A stretch of 64,000 nt of DNA from Loktanella sp. 3ANDIMAR09 (GTDB lineage: Bacteria > Pseudomonadota > Alphaproteobacteria > Rhodobacterales > Rhodobacteraceae). Shown piece by piece: positions 5,367 through 54,764 of this stretch; position 1 is the stretch's first letter; every line of letters starts with the position of its first letter. The notes beneath the pieces were generated by a model. That model saw nothing but the letters and a program-made list of their open reading frames with translations. It was not told the origin of the DNA and did not search any database. The translations under genes were made by a program, and so were the position numbers. The stretch spans positions 1-64,000 of the forward strand of contig NZ_LJAK01000005.1 of the NCBI RefSeq assembly GCF_001420005.1. Reading direction: 5' to 3'.

Positions 5367-6221
5367 TTACAGCTGCGGTGCGGAAAATGTATCGCAATCG
5401 GTCAACAGCCCGCTTTCGAACCCGCGTGCCAGCCAGCGCTGGCGCTGCGCACTGGTGCCGTGGGTGAAACTGTCGGGCCGCACGACGCCGCCTGCATTGC
5501 CCTGCAGGGTGTCGTCACCGATCGCAGCGGCAGCATTCATCGCCTCTTGCAGGTCGCCGCGTTCCAGAACGCCGAATGCCGCCTGCGCCCCGCGCGCCCA
5601 GATCCCGGCATAGCAATCCGCCTGCAATTCCGTGCGCACCGACAGCGCGTTGGAATCGGCCTGGCTGACCTGCGCGCGCAACCGGTTCACCTGCCCCAGG
5701 ATACCCAACTCGTTCTGGACGTGATGGGCGACCTCATGGGCGATCACATAGGCCTGCGCAAAATCGCCGCCCGCCCCCAGCCGCTGCGCCAAGGTGCGAA
5801 AAAACGCGGTGTCCAGAAAAATCCGGTCCTCGGTCGGGCAGTAGAATGGTCCGGTGGCCGCATCCGCGGTTCCACATGCCGATTGCGTGATCCCGTCGAA
5901 CAGCACCAGAACGGGCGGCTGATAGGGCTGGCCCACCTGCTGGTCAAAGGTCTGCGCCCAGACATCCTCTGTCAGACCCAGCACCGCGGCGACGAATTGT
6001 TCCATTTCGGGATCGTCCGCATCGATGGCGCTGGTGTCGATCTGCTGGGTCCCGCCCTGCCCGCCACCGTTCACCAAAGGCGAGACATCGACGCCGAAAT
6101 ACCAACCGATCAGCAGCACGAGGATCGCGCCGATTCCACCGATGCCACCCACGGCACGCCCGCCGCCACTGCGTCCGCGACGCTCGATATTGCGGCTGCT
6201 GCGCCGACCTTTCCACTGCAT
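5367..6221 (-). CDS. Neutral zinc metallopeptidase, membrane-anchored (YpfJ family)
   Basis: The 284-aa protein has a basic, Gly-rich N-terminus, one membrane segment (about residues 28-43), and an extracytoplasmic domain with the zinc motif HEVAHHVQ at residues 162-169 followed by a distant TELQADCYAG, the pattern of the neutral zinc metallopeptidase family. Its substrate is unknown. The frame extends upstream to 6341, but ATG 6221 has a GGGAG ribosome site 7 nt ahead and gives the usual MQWKGRRSS start. It is divergent from the DedA-like gene at 6346. Confidence 0.88.
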   Translation of the reverse strand: MQWKGRRSSRNIERRGRSGGGRAVGGIGGIGAILVLLIGWYFGVDVSPLVNGGGQGGTQQIDTSAIDADDPEMEQFVAAVLGLTEDVWAQTFDQQVGQPYQPPVLVLFDGITQSACGTADAATGPFYCPTEDRIFLDTAFFRTLAQRLGAGGDFAQAYVIAHEVAHHVQNELGILGQVNRLRAQVSQADSNALSVRTELQADCYAGIWARGAQAAFGVLERGDLQEAMNAAAAIGDDTLQGNAGGVVRPDSFTHGTSAQRQRWLARGFESGLLTDCDTFSAPQL

Positions 6222-17166: not shown

Positions 17167-17613
17167 ATGACCGCAGAAGCCGACATGATGAAACTCTATT
17201 CGACGCGCATTCTGGCGCTTGCGTCACAAGTGCCCCATGTCGGCCGGTTGAATGCGCCAGGCGGCACCGCCCGTCAGCGATCGCCACTGTGCGGCTCGAC
17301 GGTGACCGTGGACGTGGTTGTGCAGGACGGCGTGATTTCGCAGTTCGCACAGGACGTTAAGGCCTGCGCGCTGGGTCAGGCAGCCGCTGCCGTGGTCGGT
17401 GCGGCGATCATCGGGCTGGACCGCGCCACCGTGCAACGTGGACGCGACGCCTTGGCGGCCATGCTCAAGGACGGTGGTCCGGTGCCGACCGCCCCCTTTG
17501 ACGGGCTCGCCGTTCTTGAACCCGCCAAGGATTACAAGAACCGCCACGCCTCGATCCTGCTTTGCTTTGATGCAACGCTTGCGGCCCTGGACGCAGCGCA
17601 AGTCAGCGCCTGA
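17167..17613 (+). CDS. NifU/IscU-like iron-sulfur cluster scaffold protein
   Basis: The 148-aa protein resembles the NifU N-terminal family with three widely spaced cysteines ([38 protein letters not shown]) as possible cluster ligands. ATG 17167 follows AAAGGG; ATG 17152 is possible. The standard role is building and passing Fe-S clusters, but stand-alone alphaproteobacterial members are poorly studied. It is divergent from hisI. Confidence 0.8.
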
Positions 17614-17857
17614 AACCACCGCACGGCCAAACTTGGGGCCGTGAATAAATCCACATAGATCAGCATGACAGGCGCACCTTCAGCCGTTGGTCGCCGGGAC
17701 CTTTGCGCATCGCGATTACCGTCGTTTCGCCATGGGGCGACCGGCCAGACAGTTGCCGTTGTAGGGGAATCTGCACCTTTTCCGCAGGCCCGGACCCAGC
17801 CCCCATGTGATCAGTTGCGGTCACAAGGCGGCAGCAGACAGACCCGACCGCTTTGCC
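17614..17857. other. Noncoding interval
   Basis: This is the gene-free part between the NifU-like gene and the terminator at 17858. Open frames of about 80-110 codons exist on both strands (for example 17660-17905 minus), but they have no ribosome site or recognisable product. No repeat or RNA gene was recognised. Confidence 0.5.
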
Positions 17858-17890
17858 AAAAAAAACCGCCGCGCGCTGTGACAGCGGCGG
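17858..17890 (-). terminator. Intrinsic terminator of the 40-aa peptide transcript
   Basis: Reading the minus strand, CCGCCGC and GCGGCGG form a 7-bp GC stem (17866-17890) followed at once by eight T residues (17858-17865). This is a textbook intrinsic terminator. It lies about 130 nt beyond the stop of the small gene at 18022. Confidence 0.85.
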
Positions 17891-18021
17891 CGGGCAGTGA
17901 TGCATCCTGTGTGGCGCGCGGCGTCGGTGGGATCAGGCAAATCCCGGACGCTGTGGACAGGCAAGTCGTGATTGCTGTGTGGGACAGGCAATGACGCGCG
18001 CCGTTGGATACGAGGCAGGTG

Positions 18022-18144
18022 TCAGAGAAATCCGGGCAAGGACAATCCAACACACAGCATGACGGTCAGGGCCAGAACACCCAGGGCATCCGACAGGATC
18101 GTGTCGCTGTTGCGGACAATCACTGATTTGATTTGCTGGCTCAT
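18022..18144 (-). CDS. 40-aa single-pass membrane peptide, possibly SOS-controlled
   Basis: The peptide has a polar N-terminus (MSQQIKSVIVRNSDTILSD) followed by one hydrophobic segment (about residues 20-40) ending LSLPGFL. ATG 18144 is preceded by AAAGGAG at 7 nt, a near-perfect ribosome site. Upstream at 18207-18221 is GAAC-N7-GAAC, the LexA operator pattern of alphaproteobacteria, and an intrinsic terminator lies downstream. No family can be named. The inferred role is a damage-induced membrane peptide, comparable in plan to Caulobacter SidA, a small SOS-induced inner-membrane division inhibitor, but no sequence match is claimed. Confidence 0.75.
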   Translation of the reverse strand: MSQQIKSVIVRNSDTILSDALGVLALTVMLCVGLSLPGFL

Positions 18145-18206
18145 CGTCTGGCTCCTTTCATCTCGCTGTGTTGCCTCTTTGTTCCATAATGCACGCAGCA
18201 TGTAAA

Positions 18207-18221
18207 GAACTTTATGAGAAC
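18207..18221. promoter_or_regulatory. Candidate LexA (SOS) box
   Basis: GAACTTTATGAGAAC fits GAAC-N7-GAAC exactly (GTTC-N7-GTTC on the minus strand), the operator recognised by alphaproteobacterial LexA. A third GAAC follows at 18228-18231. It lies 63 nt upstream of the 40-aa peptide start and between that gene and holC. Confidence 0.65.
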
Positions 18222-18264
18222 AAACGTGAACAAAAGTGATCGCTACGTGGAACATCCCTGTAAA

Positions 18265-18729
18265 TCAGGGCTTTGGGTGTTCCGCTTTCTTGGACCAGGC
18301 CCCGCCGTCCTGCGCCCAGTATTGTGCGTTACAGCCTGCGGCGGTCAGGGTTTTCCATTGCTGGCGTGCAACCGCCAGTGCCTCACCGTCGTGTCCGTCG
18401 AACAGCACGCAGGCCCGGTCCGACAATCCCACTTCGGTCGCGCTCAGCGGTGCACCGTCGATGCTCATGATGCAGGCGAACCCACCTGCGGGGGTATCCA
18501 CCCCCAGCAGGATCGGTTGGTCCGCATCATGCGGACCGCCCGCCAGCCCATGCGGACGAAAGCCATCCGCGGGCCCCTGCCACAGGACCTCATCCAGCCG
18601 CGCGAGGCGGGCGGGATCGGTCCCCCGCACCATCACGCGCCACCCCTGCCCGCGCGCCCGGTCCAGCAGCATGGGCAGCGCCTGTTCCAGCGGGCTGTCC
18701 GTCAGATGATAGAAATAGACGGCCCCCAT
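18265..18729 (-). CDS. holC: DNA polymerase III chi subunit
   Basis: The 154-aa protein of the clamp-loader complex would link polymerase III to single-strand binding protein. The start MGAVYFYHLTDSPLEQALPM and the interior LLDRARGQGWRVMVRG fit HolC. ATG 18729 overlaps the pepA stop by one base (TGATG), the usual alphaproteobacterial pepA-holC pairing. A longer upstream reading frame lies inside pepA. Confidence 0.88.
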   Translation of the reverse strand: MGAVYFYHLTDSPLEQALPMLLDRARGQGWRVMVRGTDPARLARLDEVLWQGPADGFRPHGLAGGPHDADQPILLGVDTPAGGFACIMSIDGAPLSATEVGLSDRACVLFDGHDGEALAVARQQWKTLTAAGCNAQYWAQDGGAWSKKAEHPKP

Positions 18730-20195
18730 CAGGATTCGTAGCGATCCGCGATCAGACGGTTCAGGGCCATGACACCCCAGCCTGTCGCTCCCTTGGGTGA
18801 CAGGGCCGTTTCGGATTTGACCGATGCCGTGCCCGCAATGTCGAGGTGGCACCAAGGCGTATCATCCTTGACGAACCGGCCCAGGAATTGCGCCGCGGTG
18901 ATGGACCCCGCATAGCGACCGCCGGTGTTTTTCATGTCCGCGATGGGGCTGTCGATCAGCTTGTCATAGGCCTTGCCCATCGGCATCCGCCATGCACCTT
19001 CGCCCTCGGACGCGCAGGCGTCCAGAAACGCGCCTGCCAGTTCATCGGAATTGCTGAACACGCCCGCGTTTTCGTTGCCCAGTGCGACCAGCATCGCCCC
19101 GGTCAGTGTCGCAAGGTTGATCATGCCCGTGGGCGCGAAACGGTCCTGCGCGTACCACAGCACATCGGCCAGCACCATGCGGCCCTCGGCGTCGGTGTTG
19201 ATGACCTCGATCGTGTCGCCTTTCATGGATGTGATGACGTCGCCGGGTTTGTAGGCCTTGCCGTCGGGCATGTTTTCCACCAGCCCGACCAGACCCACGA
19301 CGTTCGCCTTGGCCTTGCGCAGGGCCAGTGTGCGCATCACGCCTGACACGACGCCCGCGCCGCCCATGTCCATGGTCATGTCTTCCATGCCGGCACCCGG
19401 CTTGATCGAGATACCGCCCGTGTCGAACGTGACGCCTTTGCCCACCAACGCGAACGGGGCCTCGTCGCCGCCGCCGTTCCATTGCATCACCACCACCTTG
19501 GACGGGGCCGCGGACCCCTGACCCACGGCCAGCAGCGCCCGCATGCCCAGTTTCTCCAGGTCGGCCTCTTCAAGGATCTCGACCTCCAGCCCCAGTTCCT
19601 GCATGCCTGCCAGACGGGCCGCGAAATCATCGGTGGTCAGCACATTGCCCGGCGCATTGGTCAGATCGCGGGTGAAAAAGATGCCTTCGGCGATCGCCAT
19701 GCCGACCCGTGCTGCCGAAGCCAGCGCCTCGGGATCGTCGGACTGAACAGTGATCGGGCCCTGCGGCTTGCCCTTGTCGGTCTTGTGATCGGTGAACCGG
19801 TAGCCGCGCAGCGCCAGCCCCAGTGCAATGTTTTCGGCGTTGCCAATGTCGCCCGCCAGAACCGTCAGCGCATCGCTGCCCTGCGCCTTGGCGAGGGCCG
19901 CGCCGATCTTGCGCGCGGTCACGGCATCAGGATCGGCGGGGGCCTTGACCACCAGTACCGCATCGGCGGCGGTGCCTGCGGCATAGTTCAGCCGCACGAC
20001 GTGACCCGGTTCCGCCTTGTCAAAGGCCGTGTCCTGGGCCGCACGCGACACGGCCTTGTGGGTCGTGGCGTCCAGTTTCTGCGCGGCGGACGACAGTTGA
20101 CCATCTGTTCCAACGAAAACGGCGATCAGACCAGCGGTTTTTTCCAGACCGTCATGGTCATTGGGCACAAAGCGGATGTCAGCGATATCAGTCAT
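18729..20195 (-). CDS. pepA: Leucyl aminopeptidase (M17)
   Basis: The 488-aa cytosolic dinuclear-zinc exopeptidase removes N-terminal residues from peptides. It shows the family signature NTDAEGRMVLADVLWYAQ and the metal and active-site stretch VGKGVTFDTGGISIKPG. ATG 20195 was preferred over the in-frame GTG at 20201; AAAGG lies ahead. It is co-transcribed with holC and divergent from lptF. Confidence 0.95.
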   Translation of the reverse strand: MTDIADIRFVPNDHDGLEKTAGLIAVFVGTDGQLSSAAQKLDATTHKAVSRAAQDTAFDKAEPGHVVRLNYAAGTAADAVLVVKAPADPDAVTARKIGAALAKAQGSDALTVLAGDIGNAENIALGLALRGYRFTDHKTDKGKPQGPITVQSDDPEALASAARVGMAIAEGIFFTRDLTNAPGNVLTTDDFAARLAGMQELGLEVEILEEADLEKLGMRALLAVGQGSAAPSKVVVMQWNGGGDEAPFALVGKGVTFDTGGISIKPGAGMEDMTMDMGGAGVVSGVMRTLALRKAKANVVGLVGLVENMPDGKAYKPGDVITSMKGDTIEVINTDAEGRMVLADVLWYAQDRFAPTGMINLATLTGAMLVALGNENAGVFSNSDELAGAFLDACASEGEGAWRMPMGKAYDKLIDSPIADMKNTGGRYAGSITAAQFLGRFVKDDTPWCHLDIAGTASVKSETALSPKGATGWGVMALNRLIADRYES

Positions 20196-54341: not shown

Positions 54342-54764
54342 TCAGTCCTTGCGGTGCACCCGTTCGCCACGCTCGTGGCGTTCCTGCGCCTCGAGCGTCA
54401 TGGTCGCGATGGGGCGCGCATCCAGACGTTTGAGGCTGATCGGATCACCCGTGATCGCGCAATACCCGAATTCACCATCGTCGATACGGCGCAGGGCGGC
54501 GTCGATTTTCGCAACCAGCTTGCGCTGACGGTCGCGGGTGCGCAATTCGATGCTGCGGTCGGTTTCCTCGGAGGCACGATCGGCCACGTCGGGGATGTTG
54601 CGGGTCTGGTCCTTCATGCCGGCGACGGTGTCGCGCGTGTCCTCCAGCAAATCGGCCTTCCAGTCGAGCAGCTTGCGGCGGAAATATTCTGTCTGACGTT
54701 CGTTCATGAACGGTTCATCTTCGGCCGGACGATAGTCATCTGGCAGAAATGTTTCGGCTTTCAT
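54342..54764 (-). CDS. dksA: RNA polymerase-binding transcription factor DksA
   Basis: The 140-aa coiled-coil protein binds the RNA polymerase secondary channel and works with ppGpp. The coiled-coil tip motif DxxDxA is present (DVADRA). The zinc finger is reduced to one cysteine (GYCAITGDP) where E. coli DksA has four. Two in-frame starts with good ribosome sites exist: ATG 54764 (GGAGGGG ahead; MKAETFLPDDYRPAEDEPF) and ATG 54812 (GGAGAG ahead), which adds 16 residues. Confidence 0.9.
   Translation of the reverse strand: MKAETFLPDDYRPAEDEPFMNERQTEYFRRKLLDWKADLLEDTRDTVAGMKDQTRNIPDVADRASEETDRSIELRTRDRQRKLVAKIDAALRRIDDGEFGYCAITGDPISLKRLDARPIATMTLEAQERHERGERVHRKD

Follow-up and report, generated by a model that had tools for sequence, protein, structure and literature searches.

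In Caulobacter crescentus, the SOS response induces SidA, a small transmembrane inhibitor of cell division that is controlled by LexA and acts on FtsW, FtsI and FtsN; in two-hybrid tests it binds FtsW and FtsN (PMC4211646). The LexA box of this organism is GTTC-N7-GTTC, and in a lexA mutant sidA causes filamentation (PMC12700426). In other bacteria, TM7 of FtsW is the docking site of YneA; AlphaFold 3 models that their authors do not consider high-confidence point to FtsW for SosA, ChiZ and SidA as well (PMC13396833). How bacteria beyond a few models halt division upon DNA damage is largely unknown, and small inhibitors, being tiny and quick to evolve, escape annotation.

The locus described here lies in a 64-kb stretch of DNA from Loktanella sp. 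3ANDIMAR09 (64,000 nucleotides, analyzed whole and referred to as the window) and encodes a 40-residue micropeptide. It resembles SidA in its size class, its one predicted helix and its probable LexA-type control. YneA of Bacillus, SosA of Staphylococcus and ChiZ of Mycobacterium are comparable as small membrane inhibitors of division induced by DNA damage; a LysM domain is present in YneA and ChiZ, and SosA has an extended helix (PMC13396833), whereas the micropeptide has only 14 to 18 residues past its D-x-x-G motif. DidA of Caulobacter, also small and transmembrane, stops division in damaged cells, but it is SOS-independent, depending on DriD, and binds FtsN (PMC4211646). DinQ of E. coli, a 27-aa single-transmembrane peptide under two LexA operators (PMC3567139), is alike in size and in promoter plan.

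The micropeptide gene and its flanks

The features of the locus, all on the minus strand, are as follows.

17865-17888, minus strand: terminator-like hairpin with a T run, about 130 nt past the peptide stop
18022-18144, minus strand: micropeptide gene, 40 aa plus stop, translation MSQQIKSVIVRNSDTILSDALGVLALTVMLCVGLSLPGFL
18152-18157, minus strand: ribosome-binding site AAGGAG, 7 nt upstream of the ATG, as read from the sequence
18170-18184, minus strand: operator 2, GAAC-N7-CAAC, an imperfect second LexA-type site, GAACAAAGAGGCAAC
18201-18206, minus strand: TTTACA, a possible -35 element, directly following operator 1
18207-18221, minus strand: operator 1, GTTC-N7-GTTC, of the alphaproteobacterial LexA-box type, GAACTTTATGAGAAC
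18228-18231, minus strand: additional GTTC half-site, upstream of operator 1 at a spacing of N6
18265-18732, minus strand: holC (DNA polymerase III chi), upstream neighbor, Pfam PF04364 at 1.6e-29

Much of the analysis below rests on a set of 110 loci chosen by peptide match, genomes without a match being left out. The set comprises the 30 best matches, the 40 next, 20 from near the end of the listed single-sequence search matches and 20 from near the end of the listed profile matches. A preliminary description of this DNA, made from its letters, had pointed to a 41-codon frame with a good ribosome site, and this frame at 18022-18144 is a real gene under coding selection. The ribosome site AAGGAG is present at 18157-18152, and one of GGAG, GAGG or AGGA lies no more than 20 nt upstream of the start in 97 of the 110 loci. 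In 96 close pairs among 108 aligned core sequences, pN/pS was 0.30 in the true frame versus 0.50-2.5 in the other five frames, and 90 of the 110 peptides are exactly 40 aa long. The hairpin is a weak feature, one being found against a mean of 0.5 in shuffled sequence. Searches of Pfam, NCBIfam, PHROGs and PDB with the peptide returned as best matches only single-member or unrelated entries at E 0.0089 or weaker, and by these comparisons the micropeptide fits no known protein family.

The peptide has a cationic N-terminal part, a motif Asp19-x-x-Gly22 where one predicted membrane helix begins, and a C-terminal L-x-L-P. The single membrane helix of the preliminary description is borne out by a Kyte-Doolittle 19-residue maximum of at least 1.8 in all 110 peptides and by an AlphaFold2 model that is mostly helical (helices 2-11 and 13-39; mean pLDDT 79.6, pTM 0.40). 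The N-terminal part is net positive in 91 of the 110 peptides, and in 108 the residues past D-x-x-G are all uncharged; together with the predicted helices, these properties suggest an N-in, C-out topology. The length of 14 to 18 residues after this motif holds for 109 of the 110. Numbered from the core Asp as position 0, Leu15 is invariant in 108 of 108 sequences and Pro18 is present in 104, the core Asp and Gly being 108 of 108 by virtue of the selection pattern, under which two of the 110 peptides were dropped. Conservation along the core has a period of 100 degrees per residue, which places it along a single face of the helix (uncorrected p = 0.013 and 0.031 for positions 0-18 and 0-17, respectively). 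Because conservation follows this helical period a specific helix contact is favored, and the conserved face would be a sign of a specific helix partner. The pattern also provides a direct hypothesis for mutagenesis.

Distribution across Rhodobacteraceae

A single-sequence search at E <= 0.5 found relatives of the peptide in 323 of 394 Rhodobacteraceae genomes, and a search with a 30-row profile at E <= 0.01 found them in 178 of 196, the two samples overlapping in genomes. Seventeen of the 18 profile-negative genomes have GTTC-N7-GTTC behind recG followed by a short D-x-x-G frame with a hydrophobic stretch; these diverged frames were picked out by a loose pattern (D-x-x-G/A, 22-70 aa, no more than 190 nt from the box) and then assessed by eye. 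Having escaped the profile, these genomes are the most stringent test of whether box and peptide go together. Among the 18, G474 matched at 0.00165 in another search, and in G494 neither box nor peptide was seen behind recG. Two genomes that the single-sequence search left unmatched, G045 and G001, also carry the unit of box and peptide. Judging from the sequences compared, the putative two-operator LexA promoter is easier to recognize across Rhodobacteraceae than the peptide itself, and the promoter signature, more than protein similarity, reveals a candidate across a large bacterial family.

As read by eye, the G001 peptide carries Glu in place of the core Asp (HEALG) and its promoter retains both operators. 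This replacement suggests that the acidic group matters.

The presence of the micropeptide in other alphaproteobacterial families was considered and rejected. In a sample of the class, five of 289 genomes matched, four of them Rhodobacteraceae (the window genome included) and one with its match inside a 547-aa frame; unmatched Rhodobacteraceae among the 289 were only partly enumerated. Among the 30 loci listed of 133 recG-bearing genomes of the class, a box lies no more than 400 nt behind recG in one (L349) of the 29 that belong to other families, and the frame after that box is longer and by eye does not resemble the micropeptide. An origin as phage or plasmid cargo was likewise rejected, the window peptide having no match in phage records and a query from its close family none in viral contigs. 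A single plasmid match for the micropeptide was found, in a 1.58-Mb Pseudorhodobacter record.

Promoter structure and joint conservation

The preliminary description had reported an exact fit to GAAC-N7-GAAC and a third GAAC upstream of the frame. Both are present, the first as operator 1 at 18207-18221 and the second as the half-site at 18228-18231, separated from it by N6. Across the 110 loci the extra half-site stands at a spacing of N6 in 95 and N7 in three and is absent in 12. Taken alone, an exact box is a chance-level observation: the window contains three against 1.89 expected, with at least three in 27 of 100 shuffles, and the whole genome contains 124 such sites against 84 for a reversed control pattern. 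Besides operator 1, the window has exact boxes at 5898-5912 and 54702-54716, which correspond to this chance frequency.

Operator 1 is placed above chance because box and peptide are conserved jointly. An exact box lies no more than 200 nt upstream of the peptide in all 30 loci of the first set, with none in the remaining 85,277 bases of these loci. The box was also found in another 80 of 80, including 40 taken from where the two match lists are weakest, and in 50 of 50 named loci whose genomes are partly shared with the 110-locus set. That relatives keeping the peptide also keep the box, a point the preliminary description had offered for comparison among related genomes, thus held as a set test in 110 of 110 peptide-matched loci, and on this conservation upstream of the peptide a chance box is rejected. 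Outside the set, two incomplete genomes depart from the rule. The G157 assembly (80% complete) keeps the peptide and has lost operator 1; in G033 (74% complete) the peptide, recognized by eye, and GAAC-N7-GAAC are kept and operator 1 is degenerate. A lexA match was not found at 1e-30 in either genome.

The alignment gives a promoter consensus of GTTC-N6-GTTC-N7-GTTC, then TTTACA, 17 nt, and GAAC-N7-CAAC. The last of these elements is operator 2, GAACAAAGAGGCAAC in the window, which the preliminary description did not mention. GAAC-N7-[C/G]AAC follows operator 1 by no more than 60 nt in 100 of the 110 loci, with a distance of 22-24 nt in 98 of these, and occurs in none of 1285 control windows. 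Among 99 parsed promoters, TT.AC follows operator 1 in 86, and its distance to GAAC is 17 nt in 91; in the window this distance is 16 nt. A promoter scan of the locus returned no canonical sigma-70 promoter, and a -10 element was not recognizable. We infer that TTTACA is the -35 element and that operator 2 would span the -10 region and the transcription start. Operator 2 stands a median of 41 nt before the start codon, and the leader consensus fades past this operator.

Identity of the repressor

The micropeptide gene is very probably a LexA-controlled SOS gene. The SOS-type context put forward in the preliminary description is strongly supported by the conservation of the box in all 110 peptide-matched loci, and GTTC-N7-GTTC is the motif described for LexA in Alphaproteobacteria (PMC12700426, PMC3323433). 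In 27 genomes of the set, GAAC-N7-GAAC lies no more than 170 nt upstream of lexA in 27 and of recA in 27, and in the window genome boxes stand shortly before matches to recA, to lexA and to a frame with a LexA-like peptidase domain. A scoring matrix was built from 54 lexA and recA sites, preselected as exact GAAC-N7-GAAC. With it, every one of the 110 peptide promoters (8.40 to 28.3) outscored each of 319 control windows, whose maximum was 4.35. The best of 400 shuffled upstream regions, in which single-base content only was preserved, reached 12.87, above the weakest real promoter at 8.40; the window promoter scored 13.83. In 70 of the 110 promoters the best match of the matrix lies on the coding strand, the location of operator 2, rather than at operator 1. 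The core score of operator 1 in the window ranks 20th among the 100 listed of the 124 GTTC-N7-GTTC sites in its own genome.

Control by a repressor other than LexA that likewise recognizes GTTC repeats appears highly unlikely to us. It would account for the one position at which operator 1 departs from the lexA and recA sites, having A before the second GTTC where T is found in 51 of 54 of them. It would also account for G150, a genome of three contigs and about 100% completeness in which lexA was not detected at 1e-30, yet both operators and the peptide are kept behind recG; this genome has either a diverged lexA or another repressor. Against such a repressor stand the published LexA motif and the presence of GTTC-N7-GTTC at lexA and recA in the same genomes that carry the peptide. 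A lexA match at 1e-30 was missing from 20 of 394 genomes, mostly fragmented. Seventeen of the 20 have recG, and of these 10 keep operator 1, including G150 and G301, the frame behind operator 1 in G301 having no D-x-x-G. G157 and G033, described above, are the two that keep a peptide but not operator 1. The 420 nt behind recG contain neither box nor peptide in G008, G167 and G195; in G028 and G325 the available sequence ends at recG or soon after it.

Gene neighborhood

A recG tail lies upstream of the peptide in 29 of the 30 first-set loci, the window being the exception; here holC and pepA precede the micropeptide. Among 27 recG loci, the unit stands directly behind recG in 24, is displaced in two (the window genome and G397) and was not found in G494. 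A convergent downstream frame is common to 26 of the 30 loci and is retained in the window. It has no Pfam match, and we take it to be an iron-sulfur-scaffold-like protein.

This arrangement raises the possibility that the operators serve recG or another neighbor, with the peptide as a passenger. The usual position of recG upstream would fit, and LexA control of recG has been predicted in some Alphaproteobacteria (PMC3323433). The box, however, sits 3' of recG, and on the 5' side none of the 27 recG loci has a box up to 450 nt from the recG match. The recG gene of the window genome is located elsewhere, with no box in the 900 nt behind it, and operators and peptide have stayed together; in-frame selection, moreover, acts on the peptide. 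The recG reading is rejected on the position of the box and the separability of the unit from recG, and we regard it as hardly credible. Since the recG of the window genome has no box behind it and none of the 27 recG loci has one upstream, it is most likely the peptide that the operators serve.

Possible function

By analogy with SidA and YneA, the micropeptide may be a SidA-like brake on septum synthesis, a proposal on which we are evenly balanced. LexA bound at two operators framing the promoter would keep the gene off. Upon DNA damage, RecA-stimulated cleavage of LexA would free the promoter and allow a burst of the 40-residue peptide, which is predicted to span the inner membrane with its one helix, the cationic N-terminus facing the cytoplasm. 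The helix face formed by Asp0, Gly3, Leu7, Leu11, Leu15 and Pro18 could then dock on a membrane partner. The most likely such partner would be the septal wall-synthesis complex FtsW/FtsI/FtsN, and division might pause until repair is complete, as it does with SidA in Caulobacter. Nothing in the data singles out FtsW. Our tentative formulation, to which we give slightly less than an even chance, is that of an SOS checkpoint effector of Rhodobacteraceae, about 30-45 residues long and expressed from a two-operator LexA promoter, whose Asp-x-x-Gly face would keep the septal wall polymerase complex inactive.

The main rival, in our view unlikely, is a membrane toxin under LexA control, comparable to DinQ or TisB, which would lower membrane potential and ATP, slow growth and spare some cells after damage. 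The micropeptide shares with such toxins its size class, single helix and LexA-type control, is small and hydrophobic with no soluble domain, and has two operators as does the E. coli dinQ promoter (PMC3567139). DinQ differs in being restrained by antisense RNA and transcript processing (PMC3567139), whereas the leader of the micropeptide is short and poorly conserved, and a search of 17600-18400 at E 0.1 matched no Rfam family, a result that covers curated RNAs only. The breadth of conservation next to recG and the conserved face of the helix also fit a specific partner better than a toxin. That partner might lie outside division, for example a protease, a transporter, a histidine kinase such as CckA, or the machinery of DNA uptake or gene transfer. 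The conserved face names no partner, and LexA is tied to the CtrA/GTA network in Rhodobacteraceae: for Dinoroseobacter, PMC6473078 reports LexA sites predicted in silico at genes for GTA and recombination, and it cites one at cckA of R. capsulatus. The flanks examined, however, show no linkage to such genes, having recG upstream in 29 of 30 loci and the convergent frame downstream in 26 of 30, and an SOS peptide with a partner of this sort seems rather unlikely to us.

LexA-controlled membrane micropeptides are known as a kind. Among the matches listed in openly licensed PMC papers, none describes a peptide of this sort in its title or the opening of its abstract, and the available portion of PMC6473078 gives LexA sites in Dinoroseobacter and does not name the micropeptide gene; as far as we have seen, the sequence family, its linkage to recG and its two-operator promoter are undescribed. 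With the division brake as the preferred reading, Rhodobacteraceae would gain a testable SOS effector, possibly a second alphaproteobacterial case to set beside SidA.

Other sequences of the window genome

A second short membrane frame was noted in the window genome (contig C19, 1500-1595), MYDLRTILTDILGVIALAIILIGSLFIAGGLS, which is core-like at E 0.196. GTTC-N7-GTTC is absent from the 400 nt upstream of it and the frame overlaps the next start; it is probably a chance frame or a mobile-element gene. Elsewhere in this genome (C3:219145), GTTCTACTTCTGTTC, the box with the best core score among the 100 listed for the genome, stands just before a frame of 154 aa that has a LexA-type peptidase domain and is likely a UmuD-like SOS gene.
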